From positions 1 to 20,842 of the IMG/VR virus record IMGVR_UViG_3300030060_006664: 20,842 nucleotides of DNA, one strand, 5' to 3'. Made by a program: the position numbers and the translations under genes. Source of the stretch: a virus. The notes under the pieces were generated by a model. The model saw only the letters and a list, made by a program, of their open reading frames with translations, was not told the origin of the DNA and searched no databases. Positions 7,341 to 15,207 of this stretch are shown piece by piece; positions within the stretch are counted from its first letter, which is position 1, and each line of letters starts with the position of its first letter.

Positions 7341-8117
7341 TTAATCAAGTTTCCATTCTTTTACTGCTATTGCCCATCTTGGTGCAACACTACCACTACC
7401 TAATTTTTGTTGTAATTTATGGTCAACTACTTTAACTACTAAACCATCTGTTGGATATCTAGAAAAAATTAAACTATCTTTCCAATCTTCATGTAATGTT
7501 TTAACTTTCTGTATAACATTACTATCTATATATATATGACCACATACATGAAATTTTTGATCTAATAAAAGTTTTATAGTGTCAATCTCATTTCCTTCAT
7601 CTTTACCCATAATTTCAAAAGCACAAAATGCGAGTCCCTCTCCTGTCGGTGCTTTTTTTCTCATATGCCCTGCCGCAAGTCTTTGACTTTTAAGGTGTCC
7701 TGTTAAACCATATAATTCACCTCTTACTTCTATAGTGTCAATAATTTCTATTTGTTGTGGTAATCCTTTTACTGTTCTCATTGCAGCAGTAATATCTTTA
7801 CCTTTTCTATTCCAAGCTTTAACAAGTCTTCCATATTTATATCTAAGAGCTACTGCACAACCATCTATTTTTGGTTGGACAATGACAGGTGGATTATTTG
7901 GCAAGTCTTTATACCAAGAAATAAAAGAATAATTTCCTAAACTTAATAATTCTGTACCGCCACCTGGAGATAACAAGATTGGATGTTTTGGGTCTAAATT
8001 TACAAGTGTTGCTCTTAACTCATCAAACAATGCATCAGATATTAATGGATTACCTGCTCGATAAGCTTCATCATATTTTTGTATTTGTTGTGCTAGTTCT
8101 TCTACGTTAACCACCAA
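7341..8117 (-). CDS. Minimal NAD-dependent DNA ligase (Ia plus adenylation domain)
   Basis: This 258-aa protein matches only the N-terminal half of bacterial LigA. Residues 15-40 resemble the Ia domain (YDEAYRAG, LISDALFDEL). The nucleotidyltransferase motifs follow: KIDG with the presumed adenylated Lys83, EVRGE (130-134), PTDGLVVKV (222-230) and APRWAIAVKEW (245-255). It stops there. The OB-fold, zinc finger, helix-hairpin-helix and BRCT domains of the usual ~670-aa enzyme are absent. Either another protein supplies DNA binding, or it is adenylation-only. The start is uncertain: TTG at 8117 or GTG at 8114, with no clear ribosome site. Confidence 0.75.
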   Translation of the reverse strand: MVVNVEELAQQIQKYDEAYRAGNPLISDALFDELRATLVNLDPKHPILLSPGGGTELLSLGNYSFISWYKDLPNNPPVIVQPKIDGCAVALRYKYGRLVKAWNRKGKDITAAMRTVKGLPQQIEIIDTIEVRGELYGLTGHLKSQRLAAGHMRKKAPTGEGLAFCAFEIMGKDEGNEIDTIKLLLDQKFHVCGHIYIDSNVIQKVKTLHEDWKDSLIFSRYPTDGLVVKVVDHKLQQKLGSGSVAPRWAIAVKEWKLD

Positions 8118-11381: not shown

Positions 11382-11735
11382 TTAGAGGGAAAGAATATTT
11401 AAAGCATCTTTAATACTTCTTGCAACACCCGAAATCCCTCCAGAGTCGTGTATATAGTTAAGCCAATTTTTTTGAATTTGGGTAGGCTTATTTTTATTAG
11501 TTTTTATTTCAATTGATACGAATTGAGCTATTTCTTTGCCGACCATATCAGGAGTTATTTTAACTTTTTTAAAACCGATAAGATCAGAAGAACCTTTAGC
11601 CAATCCAAATTGAACATAGCGACCAGATTTTGGATGAGGGAGTTGACCCACTTGATTACGAAAAAGGCGAAGAGTTGGTATCTTGCCGAGTGCAAGTCGA
11701 ATTTCTTGCTGAAGTAGGGTTTCATCGTTGCTCAC
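11382..11735 (-). CDS. VRR-NUC domain nuclease, 117 aa
   Basis: A single-domain nuclease of the VRR-NUC type (PD-(D/E)XK fold). Visible motifs are LLQQEIRLALG at the N terminus, LFRNQVG, a FGLAKGSSDLIGF block with the catalytic Asp, VSIEIKTNK with the E-x-K pair and QKNWLNYIHDSGGISGVAR. Such proteins occur in phages next to SF2 helicases. They cut branched or flap DNA, as in FAN1 relatives. The GTG at 11735 gives a protein of normal family length and a 14-base overlap with the methyltransferase; a reading from 11786 would add 17 residues with no family match. No strong ribosome site is visible. Confidence 0.8.
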   Translation of the reverse strand: MSNDETLLQQEIRLALGKIPTLRLFRNQVGQLPHPKSGRYVQFGLAKGSSDLIGFKKVKITPDMVGKEIAQFVSIEIKTNKNKPTQIQKNWLNYIHDSGGISGVARSIKDALNILSL

Positions 11736-12939
11736 GCTCCAATTGTATAACCCTTTGCAAGGGTATGGCAGCAACTTGAGGAACAATAGAATTGCCTAAC
11801 ATTTTAAGTCTTTGAATTCGTTGTTTAGCGTCCAATTTAGTGGATAGCCCATCATCTCCTCTACAAATTGTGGGTTGAGATACATATTGTTTCCAGTTTG
11901 GGTTAAGTCGGTGTTCTGTACATCTCCATGTTTGTGAAGTTTGGCTGCTATTTCTGTTTCGAGATATTTCTTGTGTTCGAGATCTGCCATGTTCTCGCTT
12001 AGTTTCATCCCCATTCCTATTGCTGCTCTCGGTGTTGGTAGTTGATCCGCTACATCTGGAAGAGTTGCTCCGTAACCTCTCTCCTTGTAATCGGGTCTTG
12101 TCTTGCCTTTCCAATCCCTCGCTCTCGGTGTTGGAAGAAGAGAAGCTGCTAACAATGGCTGGTTTTTGTTGTTGTAACTGTTGACTCCCTGTTTGTGAGT
12201 TGTTGCTGTTGGTGTAGGTAAAAGAGAGTTGAATATTTCCTGAGTCTTTGGATTTACTGCTTCCCTCAGATTTGACAAAGAAGTACGACCTTTTCTCGCA
12301 CCCTCCATCTGTTTCTTCAATGATTCGGGACTTCGTTGATTTAGATGATCCATTGTTGTTGGTGTGGGTAACATCTCCCGATCTATTGCCGCTCGAAGTG
12401 GAGTCCCTCCCTGTTTGAATTTTGCTTTTCGATCTGGATCTGAGTTTAGAGGGGTAGGCAATAAGCCAAAATCTATCTCTTTGGTGGCAAGCTCCAACAA
12501 AGCTGCTTGGAATACAGCACCATTCTGCATCGTACCCTGCCTTGTAAAGTTCAGCGAGAACGATGTCCATTCCGTTAGTAAGGATAGCTGACACGTTTTC
12601 CAGGATGACGTATTTTGGTCGTACCATGCATATGGTTCTGATGAGTTCGTAGAAGAGACCAGACCTTGTAGTCTCTGTGATGCCTTGCTGTCTCCCTGCA
12701 ACTGAGATGTCTTGGCATGGAAATCCTGCTGAAATAACTGATGCTGAGTATGGTTCTGCGGTGTAGGTTGTGATGTCATCGTGTATTGGAATGTTAGGAA
12801 AGTTTTTTTTAAGGATTTGTTGGCAATAAGGATCTTTTTCAATGAATCCTACAGTTTCGTAACCACCTACAAGTTTTTCCGCAGCGTAACTAAAACCGCC
12901 AATCCCTGCAAATGTATCAAGTAATTTTAATTTATTCAT
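11722..12939 (-). CDS. C5 cytosine DNA methyltransferase, 405 aa
   Basis: All key catalytic motifs are visible: motif I LDTFAGIGGF (7-16), motif IV GFPCQD with catalytic Cys75, motif VI ENV (114-116), motif VIII QRDRFWLI (153-160) and motif X GNSIVPQVA (382-390). A typical motif IX is not obvious. Residues 165-360, where the target-recognition domain should be, are Ser/Thr/Asn/Arg-rich with repeated T-N-T-x-S-like units. That same DNA carries a 300-codon-plus ORF in another frame with normal protein composition. The enzyme probably modifies phage DNA against host restriction. The target sequence cannot be read. The start overlaps the HNH gene by eight bases. Confidence 0.9.
   Translation of the reverse strand: MNKLKLLDTFAGIGGFSYAAEKLVGGYETVGFIEKDPYCQQILKKNFPNIPIHDDITTYTAEPYSASVISAGFPCQDISVAGRQQGITETTRSGLFYELIRTICMVRPKYVILENVSAILTNGMDIVLAELYKAGYDAEWCCIPSSFVGACHQRDRFWLIAYPSKLRSRSKSKIQTGRDSTSSGNRSGDVTHTNNNGSSKSTKSRIIEETDGGCEKRSYFFVKSEGSSKSKDSGNIQLSFTYTNSNNSQTGSQQLQQQKPAIVSSFSSSNTESEGLERQDKTRLQGERLRSNSSRCSGSTTNTESSNRNGDETKREHGRSRTQEISRNRNSSQTSQTWRCTEHRLNPNWKQYVSQPTICRGDDGLSTKLDAKQRIQRLKMLGNSIVPQVAAIPLQRVIQLEREQR
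11796..12779 (-). CDS. Out-of-frame ORF inside the methyltransferase (LPTP-repeat protein)
   Basis: An open frame of 327 codons from the ATG at 12779 (TTG at 12842 is also open), lying wholly inside the methyltransferase on the same strand. It reads FHAKTSQ across the methyltransferase GFPCQD motif, then SSWKTCQLSLL, FSLNFTRQGTMQNGAVF, five LPTP units (for example LLPTPRARDWKG) and MYLNPQFVEEMMGYPLNWT. I recall very similar phage proteins annotated as separate hypotheticals (DSHAKTS at the start, LPTPTARD repeats, LNP-WVEWLMGYP-GWT at the end). It may be a true overprinted gene, or an artefact kept open by methyltransferase conservation. No ribosome site is visible. Confidence 0.45.
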   Translation of the reverse strand: MTSQPTPQNHTQHQLFQQDFHAKTSQLQGDSKASQRLQGLVSSTNSSEPYAWYDQNTSSWKTCQLSLLTEWTSFSLNFTRQGTMQNGAVFQAALLELATKEIDFGLLPTPLNSDPDRKAKFKQGGTPLRAAIDREMLPTPTTMDHLNQRSPESLKKQMEGARKGRTSLSNLREAVNPKTQEIFNSLLPTPTATTHKQGVNSYNNKNQPLLAASLLPTPRARDWKGKTRPDYKERGYGATLPDVADQLPTPRAAIGMGMKLSENMADLEHKKYLETEIAAKLHKHGDVQNTDLTQTGNNMYLNPQFVEEMMGYPLNWTLNNEFKDLKC

Positions 12940-13468
12940 TTTTTAACTCCTTCCTTTTCTCTTCCTGTGCAATTAAAGCTTGCTCAATCGTTTCGTGTGT
13001 GCCGTTTCTATAAGCTTTTCCGTCAACAAAAATAGTAGCTGTATATCTTCCATTTTCTTGCTGATAGATACCTGAGAAACCTGTTTTACTATTTTTATAT
13101 TCATTTTTATTATTATTATTTTGTTTTGTTGTAACCTTTCTTAAATTACCAATACGATTATCAAGTGTATTTCTATTTATGTGATCTATATCGTAATGTT
13201 TTGGATCATCTTTAAGATAAAGTTTCCAAATTATACGTTGAACCGAATATTGTTTTCCATTAACACCAACTTGAAGATAAGTTAAATTACCACTTTTATG
13301 TTTAGAACCTGCTATAGAACCTTTTTTAACATTAGATCTATTTACCTTCCAAATTAAATCTCCTTTATAAGGATTATATTCAAATAATTCATCTAAAAGT
13401 TTCCAATCAGGTAAAGGAAGTTTATTAGTTTTTGGTTGTTTTAAAATTTCCATAAATAAAAGTTTCAT
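12932..13468 (-). CDS. HNH endonuclease with AP2 DNA-binding domain, 178 aa
   Basis: A free-standing homing-type endonuclease. The N-terminal part has LFEYNPYKGDLIWK and GKQYSVQRIIWKLY. The HNH core follows: YDIDHINRNTLDNRIGNLRKV (about 92-112), with His96 and Asn103 as likely catalytic or metal residues. The C-terminal part is an AP2-like fold (TGFSGIYQ, GRYTATIFVDG, TIEQALIA). The ATG at 13468 is chosen because it overlaps the helicase stop (ATGA); an internal Met at 13453 is possible. It sits between helicase and methyltransferase with overlaps on both sides, so it has adapted to the operon rather than interrupting a gene. Confidence 0.85.
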   Translation of the reverse strand: MKLLFMEILKQPKTNKLPLPDWKLLDELFEYNPYKGDLIWKVNRSNVKKGSIAGSKHKSGNLTYLQVGVNGKQYSVQRIIWKLYLKDDPKHYDIDHINRNTLDNRIGNLRKVTTKQNNNNKNEYKNSKTGFSGIYQQENGRYTATIFVDGKAYRNGTHETIEQALIAQEEKRKELKNE

Positions 13469-15207
13469 GTATAAAAGATAGATCTTGGGCAATTATTAAC
13501 AATTTCATCTGGATTAATTTGTACTTTATTTCTTTTAATACTTGCAACATAATTTATGATGAAAGATCTATCCCAAAAATATTTACACATATTAAAAAAG
13601 CATTTTCTATAAGTTCTATTATGATTAAAACTTTTTGAACTATTAATATGAAATGTGGAAAAAATATTTTTAATAATATTTATATCTTCCTCAGATAGAT
13701 TATTAATATCAACTTTTTTATTATCATGAAATTCTTTTAGCATTTTAAACCCGACAAAATTTAAATAAACTAATTTTGAAACCAATTCCTTGTCTTGAAT
13801 TGACATATGAGATTTATTTTTAGGTATATTTATTGTTTTATTTTTTCTAGATTCAAAAACACGATAAGCCCAACCTTTTTTATAACCAAGCATTTTTGCA
13901 ACCATTTCTAATTCTTCCATAGTTCGAGCTGAAGAGATTAATATTCTTTGTTGTTGTTTTTCTGTTTCTTGCTTTTCTTTTCTTTTTAATTCTTCAAGTT
14001 CTCCTTCTTCTTGTTTAATATATCTTTCTCTGTTTTGTGCTTGATATCCACAAACAGGACAAGTTGGTTGTGGCTTATAGGAGGCAAAACATTTTTTGCA
14101 AGTCTCTACAGTAAGTGCTTGTTGATTATTTTTGTTTTTCTTTTTTTTAGAATTTAATGACCATTCTCTTATGTCATCAACAAAACCATGAGTTCTTGTT
14201 GAGTTTACATGATCAAGAATTATGGCAGTTTTTCCTTCTTTTGGTCTTAATATTCTTCCTACTTGTTGTAGGTAAAGTCCCTCAGATTTTGTTGGTCTAA
14301 GTAATATTGCTGCTGATACATCTGGGACATCTGTACCTTCGGAGATAACGTCAACAGATGTAAGAATCTCGACTTTTCCATTTGCAAGTCCTTGGATTGC
14401 ATCATTACGATCCTCCATAGACATTTCACCATGAACTATAGCACTTTTATATCCAGCATCTTTAAATTTATTGCAAACATCAGTAGCGTGTTTTACTGAT
14501 ATACAAAACGCAATAGCGGGTAAACCATGTGCGTGTTTTTTATATTGAGTTACTGCATCGCCAATAATATCAACTTTGTCGATTTCTTTTTCTAAATGTT
14601 TTTTTTGATAATCCCCTGCAACTGTTTTTACTTTGTCTAAGTCTAATTTTAATGGCGGTGCAAAAACTCTATATGGAGCTAGATATTTATCTTCAGTTAA
14701 TTTTTGTATTGAAGGCCCAGGTACTAAATCATCAAAAAAATCTGCAAGTCCTTTTCCGTCTAATCTAATTGGTGTAGCTGTACATCCTATTTTATATGCA
14801 TCACTAAAAGCAGAAATAATTTTCTGCCAAGATCCAGCGGCTGCATGATGTGCTTCATCAATAATGATCCATGATGGTTCAAATAATTTCTTTTCAAGTC
14901 TTCTTACTAGAGTTTGTACAGAGGCAATTTGAATTTTACTTTTTTTAGGTTTATATTTTGCAGCAATAATTCCATGATTAACTTTTATAGCTTTTAATTT
15001 TTTTGATGCTTGATCTATAAGTTCTTTTCTATGAACAAGAATAAGAACATTTTTATTATTTTGGGCTAAAGATTTTGAAATTTCAGCAAAGACAACAGTT
15101 TTACCTGCTCCTGTCGGCATAACTAATAAAGGAGATTTTTTACCTTTTTTACTGAAAGAATCTCTAAGATCACTAATTGCTTTGGTTTGATAACTTCTTA
15201 GTTGCAT
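13465..15207 (-). CDS. Superfamily 2 DEAH helicase with zinc ribbon and C-terminal extension, 580 aa
   Basis: A phage SF2 helicase of the COG1061 (type III restriction-like) group. Motifs are LRSYQTKAI (Q-motif-like), Walker A PTGAGKT (31-37), DEAH (117-120), TATP (143-146), SEGTDVP (289-295) and QQVGRILRP (314-322). A four-Cys zinc ribbon (CKKC...CPVC, 370-386) and a Lys/Glu coiled coil follow. The usual end GYKKGWAYRV comes at about 441-450, but this protein continues another 130 residues, Lys/Asn/Phe-rich, with no recognised domain. The ATG at 15207 fits the family N terminus (MQLRSYQ); a TTG at 15219 would add four residues. It heads the leftward replication operon. Confidence 0.85.
   Translation of the reverse strand: MQLRSYQTKAISDLRDSFSKKGKKSPLLVMPTGAGKTVVFAEISKSLAQNNKNVLILVHRKELIDQASKKLKAIKVNHGIIAAKYKPKKSKIQIASVQTLVRRLEKKLFEPSWIIIDEAHHAAAGSWQKIISAFSDAYKIGCTATPIRLDGKGLADFFDDLVPGPSIQKLTEDKYLAPYRVFAPPLKLDLDKVKTVAGDYQKKHLEKEIDKVDIIGDAVTQYKKHAHGLPAIAFCISVKHATDVCNKFKDAGYKSAIVHGEMSMEDRNDAIQGLANGKVEILTSVDVISEGTDVPDVSAAILLRPTKSEGLYLQQVGRILRPKEGKTAIILDHVNSTRTHGFVDDIREWSLNSKKKKNKNNQQALTVETCKKCFASYKPQPTCPVCGYQAQNRERYIKQEEGELEELKRKEKQETEKQQQRILISSARTMEELEMVAKMLGYKKGWAYRVFESRKNKTINIPKNKSHMSIQDKELVSKLVYLNFVGFKMLKEFHDNKKVDINNLSEEDINIIKNIFSTFHINSSKSFNHNRTYRKCFFNMCKYFWDRSFIINYVASIKRNKVQINPDEIVNNCPRSIFYT

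Follow-up and report, generated by a model that had tools for sequence, protein, structure and literature searches.

A phage gene read in two frames: a predicted two-subunit C5-cytosine DNA methyltransferase with an overlapping array of LPTP modules

Introduction

Can one stretch of phage DNA be held to two proteins at once, and if so, what would the second protein contribute to the first? The question is raised by a 20,842-nt viral DNA (IMG/VR record IMGVR_UViG_3300030060_006664, positions 1 to 20,842), hereafter the window, in which an initial annotation pointed to a long ORF nested out of frame within a methyltransferase gene. We analysed this locus together with its relatives, asking which of the two frames is constrained, where the nested frame begins and what its product resembles. 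The methyltransferase frame is called alpha here and the nested frame beta.

Results

Two overlapping frames at the locus

The nested ORF is present at 11796-12842 on the minus strand in phase +1, and encodes 348 aa if read from a TTG at 12842 or 327 aa from an ATG at 12779. It contains five LPTP units and its product ends in ...LNPQFVEEMMGYPLNWTLNNEFKDLKC, both as first described. The ending had been likened to that of separately annotated phage proteins, and the family was identified as PHROG_1008 (E 1e-33), which, like PHROG_363, is labelled DNA methyltransferase. The alpha motif GFPCQD, which had been expected to give DSHAKT-like text when read one base on, gives DFHAKT at 12705-12725. The features of the locus, all on the minus strand, are as follows, with their basis in brackets.

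11722..12939, minus strand: alpha, predicted catalytic subunit of a C5-cytosine DNA methyltransferase, 405 aa, with motifs I-VIII and X
12895..12918, minus strand: alpha motif I, DTFAGIGG (sequence and alignment)
12712..12726, minus strand: alpha motif IV, GFPCQ, with the catalytic Cys (conserved in the alignment)
12592..12600, minus strand: alpha motif VI, ENV (sequence)
12457..12486, minus strand: alpha motif VIII, HQRDRFWLIA (sequence)
11845..12461, minus strand: low-complexity linker of alpha, residues 160-365 (dN/dS, stop counts, pLDDT)
11776..11811, minus strand: alpha motif X, RLKMLGNSIVPQ (sequence; alpha dN/dS of 0.51-0.55 past the beta stop)
11796..12779, minus strand: beta, nested subunit in the +1 frame relative to alpha, 327 aa from ATG 12779, stop at 11796-11798 (ORF list, stop depletion, PHROG_1008)
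12780..12842, minus strand: 21-codon in-frame extension of beta from TTG 12842, probably untranslated
12372..12461, minus strand: beta LPTP module 1, cluster M02 (module clustering)
12222..12371, minus strand: beta LPTP module 2, cluster M03 (module clustering)
12138..12221, minus strand: beta LPTP module 3, cluster M24, the 84-nt unit missing in the relative L007 (module clustering)
12042..12137, minus strand: beta LPTP module 4, cluster M13 (module clustering)
11880..12041, minus strand: beta LPTP module 5, cluster M04, and the linker up to motif IX (module clustering)
11829..11879, minus strand: beta motif IX, LNPQFVEEMMGYPLNWT (beta dN/dS of 0.08; hhalign)

Alpha carries the catalytic motifs except motif IX

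Alpha matched PF00145 (E 4.9e-39), TIGR00675 (E 2.1e-34) and PHROG_363 (E 2e-68), and it carries motifs I, IV (PCQ), VI (ENV), VIII and X on a Rossmann-type lobe, as is characteristic of C5-cytosine methyltransferases. The AF2 model of alpha was confident for residues 1-167 and for residues 385-404, the motif X helix, while residues 168-366 were mostly disordered (pLDDT mostly 27-50), and Foldseek with this model returned M.HhaI as the best PDB matches (E 2.7e-15). The low complexity ascribed to this stretch from the start is evident from its composition, S, N, T, R, Q, G and E together making up 72% of alpha residues 168-360. Motif IX was absent from the alpha frame in all 80 of the 80 loci selected by alpha alone; for the enzyme as a whole the motif is supplied by beta, whose motif is linked to that of Dcm via single-chain and split relatives described below.

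Several neighbouring genes were recorded in the window. An HNH endonuclease ORF (PHROG_99; 12932-13492, minus strand) lies immediately upstream of alpha and overlaps its start by 8 nt, and the purine-rich AAGGAAGGAG precedes the alpha ATG; the overlap and this stretch suggest translational coupling. At the other end, a VRR-NUC nuclease ORF (11382-11786, minus strand, TTG start as listed) shares as much as 65 nt with the 3' end of alpha; further overlapping genes may therefore use that DNA. A 258-aa ORF at 7341-8117 (minus strand) had as its sole match the adenylation domain of NAD-dependent DNA ligase (PF01653); it is too short for the usual C-terminal domains and could be either a minimal ligase or a fragment.

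Both frames are kept free of stop codons

For the stop test, 80 viral loci were collected with a beta query and 7 with an alpha query, 58 of the loci being non-redundant, and the synonymous codons of one frame were shuffled while stops were counted in the other. The scored span for beta stops ran from 16 codons past PCQ to motif IX. When alpha was shuffled, 216 beta-frame stops were expected across the 58 loci and none was observed, and the third frame contained 764 stops (820 expected). The window alone gave 0 stops in the beta frame versus 6.3 expected (p at the 0.0005 floor) and 19 in the third frame versus 20.7 expected. Since this first set had been found mostly with beta, the test was repeated on a second set of 80 loci found by the alpha profile alone, 60 of which were non-redundant and scorable. 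A single beta-frame stop was observed there versus 206 expected (third frame: 644 versus 643), which rules out search bias from the beta queries as the source of the depletion. Shuffling of the beta codons in the 58 loci gave the reciprocal result, with 250 alpha-frame stops expected between motifs VIII and IX and none observed. Stops are thus all but absent from each frame when the other is shuffled, which indicates that selection holds both frames open. Within the window's group, every relative is free of beta stops between the PCQ codon and motif IX.

Apparent loss of motif IX, or apparent beta stops, in some of the alpha-selected loci largely reflected either a text pattern that was too narrow or the counting of the beta terminator itself; in the 12 such loci examined in full, beta was present and motif IX was recognisable or degenerate. 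The sole scored alpha-selected locus with an internal beta stop (L139, 2726-3274; stop at codon 63 after PCQ) has a degenerate motif IX, and its beta may be decaying or restarted downstream.

Constraint alternates between the frames

Substitutions were classed by their effect in both frames with an OLGenie-like count, in which the first letter refers to alpha and the second to beta (N, replacing; S, silent). The comparison drew on 26 independent pairs with DNA identity of at least 70% and on 13 with at least 82%. Alpha dN/dS was 0.29 in the part preceding the overlap. From PCQ to motif VIII it was 0.27-0.38 and that of beta about 0.8-0.9, and the rate of alpha-silent, beta-replacing changes fell from 0.300 to 0.187. 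Between VIII and IX, beta-silent changes were the commonest, with dN/dS of 1.26-1.86 for alpha and 0.37-0.78 for beta; the 13 close pairs gave 1.26-1.67 and 0.37-0.39, respectively. Comparison of the window with L007 over this interval yielded NN 0.02, SN 0.02 and NS 0.19. In motif IX the rates were NN 0.018, SN 0.013 and NS 0.226, corresponding to a beta dN/dS of 0.08 and an unconstrained alpha, and past the beta stop, in motif X, alpha dN/dS was 0.51-0.55. Alignment bias towards alpha was ruled out, as aligning by beta repeated the same dN/dS pattern. Beta is under purifying selection, and constraint switches from alpha to beta between VIII and IX and back to alpha at motif X. Both frames are therefore selected along a long stretch, as judged by stop counts and dN/dS, which is the mark of overprinting.

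These values bear out the proposal of the initial annotation that constraint may fall on the second frame across alpha residues 165-360: neither a beta dN/dS near 1 nor stops in close relatives were found, the 13 close pairs standing at 0.37-0.39 and the window's group being free of beta stops. Its caution that conservation of one frame could mimic conservation of the other was justified from PCQ to VIII and not from VIII to IX. In the former segment, the first ~80 codons of beta display stop avoidance and lowered silent rates with no clear amino-acid constraint of their own, and a beta dN/dS of about 0.9 implies that the beta sequence there is largely dictated by alpha. Beta as a shadow of alpha was accepted for that segment and ruled out between VIII and IX.

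Beta probably starts at internal ATG codons

In 13 of the 58 loci (group B), beta-frame stops persist to about 15 codons past PCQ. All 13 have an ATG at PCQ+16/+17 after a purine-rich, Shine-Dalgarno-like stretch such as AAGGAGAAGG, and beta stops numbered 21 (11.0 expected) just upstream of this ATG and 0 (13.7 expected) downstream. In the window's group, beta stops are no fewer than expected as far as PCQ-19, with depletion setting in at PCQ-18 (10 versus 32.6 expected, then 0 versus 10.7), and an ATG is conserved at PCQ-18, corresponding to position 12779 in the window. A start at TTG 12842 was rejected because the depletion begins at the PCQ-18 ATG, and the extension from 12780 to 12842 is probably not translated. 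ATG 12530 (MQNG, with AAGG/AGGG upstream) was rejected as the main start by 0 stops versus 99 expected over PCQ+0 to +63. No Shine-Dalgarno sequence was found upstream of ATG 12779 in the window, so beta initiation may depend on alpha translation.

Beta resembles the recognition region and motif IX of single-chain relatives

Searches of PDB and Pfam with beta and with the LPTP modules returned no significant match, and no fold match was obtained for beta because the AF2 model of beta alone was poor (mean pLDDT 53). A poor model of a lone chain would be unsurprising for a partner subunit, yet it lends that role no support.

The identity of beta was approached through relatives in which the frames are arranged differently. 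Actinophage Batiatus gp66, a single ORF, has motifs I-VIII, three LPTP units, LTAAFPEWMMGWPAGWV and LRIIGNGVCPQQA in one frame (its in-frame sequences include EWMMGWPAGW and GNGVCPQQA), and matched PHROG_363, PHROG_116 and PHROG_1008. A split gene is found in Upyo, Jarcob and AvatarAhPeg: its LPTP frame includes motifs IX and X, and in Jarcob VIII as well. With hhalign, the profile of the single-chain and split relatives aligned to E. coli Dcm through RRLTPRECARLMGFE...QFGNSVVV (motifs IX-X, E 7e-6), and beta aligned to the same relatives over the LPTP-to-IX region (E 7.5e-13). As these relatives align both to Dcm IX-X and to beta, we strongly infer that beta corresponds to the enzyme's own target-recognition region, moved to another frame, together with its motif IX, and predict that it functions as a subunit.

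Other arrangements were encountered among the relatives. In L091 (2462-3638), alpha stops just past motif VIII and the LPTP frame holds motif X, with extra residues between IX and X; in layout this locus stands midway between the nested genes and an M.AquI-like split. L078 (440-1141, 796-1206) has motif IV and LPTP/motif IX in one frame and motif X in another, the frames being joined at a GGG-rich spot after ENV, either by natural frame fusion or by a sequencing or assembly frameshift. In Gordonia phage Inspectinfecti (L181; 735-2693, 1120-1575), the gene of the single-chain methyltransferase gp5 contains, in another frame, that of the annotated endonuclease gp6; this resembles the hidden HNH insertions of PMC11855218, but the methylase is a different one. 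The ShiLan-domain enzyme with its out-of-frame HNH insertion was set aside as a different methylase.

The LPTP modules form a variable array

Between VIII and IX, beta is composed of one to five modules, mostly 27-58 aa long and mostly starting with LPTP; 135 modules fell into 69 similarity clusters, and their number and order vary. For example, M06 is followed by M11 in L023 and M11 by M06 in L035. Some modules are closer to each other than the adjoining catalytic lobes are (80% versus 49% for L035 and L053). Across aligned alpha codons the window shares 95% identity with L007, yet L007 lacks an entire module that the window has; both edges of the resulting 84-nt gap fall within LPTP-coding repeats. 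LPTP-coding DNA recurs at every boundary, so recombination could add or remove modules with both frames intact. The longest array seen, in Prevotella bivia (L185, 3239-4723), counts seven LPTP units; its beta frame is open for 495 aa and lies beside a 526-aa alpha frame.

Because Bacillus phage enzymes have tandem recognition domains that give several targets (PMC8936443), we predict that the LPTP modules are target-specificity cassettes, and consider this likely. As the modules have no PDB or Pfam match, the reading of one module for one target rests on their position and modular behaviour. A two-subunit enzyme with one composite recognition surface, on which the LPTP modules would be structural repeats or spacers, is possible but doubtful. 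It would suit the existence of one-module relatives, the LPTP opening common to the modules and the uninformative beta model, but it sits poorly with 69 dissimilar clusters, with one to five modules per protein and up to seven LPTP units, and with entire modules gained or lost between loci 95% identical in DNA; moreover, modules more alike than their hosts' catalytic lobes are what specificity cassettes would give.

Proposed enzyme and alternative readings

Open frames, alternating constraint, homology of beta to the VIII-IX region of single-chain relatives, and gain, loss and reordering of modules were all shown by the comparisons above. We think it very probable that this one gene, through two frames, encodes a predicted two-subunit C5-cytosine methyltransferase in which the modules of the beta array are most likely target-recognition cassettes. 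Alpha would be the catalytic lobe, with the cofactor site, the catalytic Cys and motifs I-VIII, continued by a disordered linker in which residue identity is irrelevant and then by the motif X helix, which would complete the lobe. Beta would be translated in this phage from the internal ATG 12779 and would bring the missing small domain, consisting of five LPTP modules and motif IX. The two proteins would bind one another, and the complex would methylate the phage genome at sites chosen by beta, perhaps one target per module, giving protection from host restriction.

Programmed frameshifting, yielding one polypeptide that follows alpha to VIII, the LPTP frame through IX and alpha again for X, appears improbable. 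The fused order would be functional, as single-chain relatives have VIII-LPTP-IX-X in one frame, but alpha is open throughout (0 versus 250 stops), which would be needless if ribosomes left it. Furthermore, the depletion of beta stops starts at internal ATGs, with Shine-Dalgarno-like stretches before them in group B, each product would need two shifts, and M.EcoHK31I is made of two polypeptides (PMC3404938). It is very improbable that beta is a real but unrelated overprinted protein, e.g. an anti-restriction or regulatory factor: the absence of a significant Pfam or PDB match would agree with such a protein, but beta has the sole motif IX, can be aligned to single-chain methyltransferases over their VIII-IX region and occurs where alpha lacks motif IX. 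That beta is untranslated and its conservation a shadow of alpha has hardly any probability left, for although beta dN/dS is about 0.9 between PCQ and VIII, where alpha largely sets it, alpha is unconstrained between VIII and IX with beta-silent changes commonest, beta lacks stops under alpha shuffling, and motif IX is in beta only.

Returning to the two-subunit enzyme with a modular beta, we think it somewhat likely that dual coding is required across a large phage methyltransferase clade, with an alpha linker free of sequence requirement and a beta made of shuffled cassettes, so that specificities are swapped as whole modules. If true, the recognition domain of M.EcoHK31I-type enzymes would move from the large to the small subunit.

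Distribution and annotation

A beta-type query matched 1,588 of 50,697 phage records, which is an upper figure because the PCQ-VIII part can match through alpha. The nested layout also occurs in about a dozen cellular genome contigs, many from Bacteroidota, with up to seven LPTP units. Judged from the sequences compared, the nested two-frame layout is the rule in a large phage clade. Both nested CDS are annotated in the RefSeq record of Escherichia phage K1ind2, and one methyltransferase CDS is annotated at the locus in the records of Klebsiella phage Soft, BcepC6B and Javan565.

The two-frame layout accounts for one phage gene giving two 'DNA methyltransferase' families (PHROG_363 and PHROG_1008) and for the alpha-only annotation in several phages. 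It also carries a warning: alpha by itself should not be mistaken for the whole enzyme, nor its variable region for the recognition domain. In more than 100 divergent loci purifying selection is handed between the frames and back along a long same-strand overlap, which makes this an unusually clear-cut natural example of dual coding. If the LPTP modules are specificity cassettes, the methylation targets of phages could be read from module content.

Comparison with known systems

In M.EcoHK31I, the small gene reportedly lies inside the large gene in another frame; in the window the nesting is seen in the sequence and a separate internal start is supported by the results above. M.EcoHK31I (YGGCCR; Lee, Kam and Shaw 1995) is outlined in PMC3404938 as a two-polypeptide C5-methyltransferase whose large subunit has motifs I-VIII, X and a predicted target-recognition domain, and whose small polypeptide has motif IX only. 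This motif split, as given there, is the one found in the window, where the large protein has I-VIII and X and the small one IX (PMC3404938). The same outline places the predicted recognition domain in the large subunit. At least for this clade, the present results disagree with that placement, the alpha stretch being disordered and free of constraint and the recognition region forming the LPTP array of beta. Since recognition-domain placement, a literature prediction for M.EcoHK31I, differs, membership of the EcoHK31I type is claimed for the motif split and layout only. Also unlike M.EcoHK31I, the window gene belongs to a phage, and no restriction enzyme was recognised next to it. We interpret the window as a phage variant of the M.EcoHK31I kind, in which dual coding is observed, subunit function is strongly indicated, and the recognition region is likely an overlapping-frame cassette array.

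M.AquI (CYCGRG) likewise shares the motifs of one enzyme between two polypeptides (PMC3404938), but there the break falls in the variable region and the small subunit carries both IX and X, whereas here X stays on alpha; the split forms of actinophages (Upyo, Jarcob) and L091 come closer to the M.AquI layout. The C5-methyltransferases of Bacillus phages (SPR, phi3T, rho11, H2) have several tandem recognition domains and several targets (PMC8936443). Those enzymes are single polypeptides in one frame, whereas the window's array belongs to a separate protein encoded by the overlapping frame, and the likeness considered is one of predicted layout; the window's family has one to five LPTP modules that are exchanged as units and whose function is predicted. 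Single-chain LPTP methyltransferases (Batiatus gp66, Inspectinfecti gp5) have the motifs, LPTP units and motif IX colinear as here, but all in one frame and one chain. Beta and alpha belong to PHROG_1008 and PHROG_363, respectively, families that are catalogued separately. In literature covering few subscription journals, no report was found that links PHROG_363 and PHROG_1008 as two subunits from one DNA stretch or that describes the nested pair as general in phages, which, given that coverage, is weak evidence of novelty. What appears new relative to these systems is the layout as a rule in a phage clade, the recognition region placed in beta, its predicted organisation as a shuffled cassette array, and the mapped internal starts of beta.
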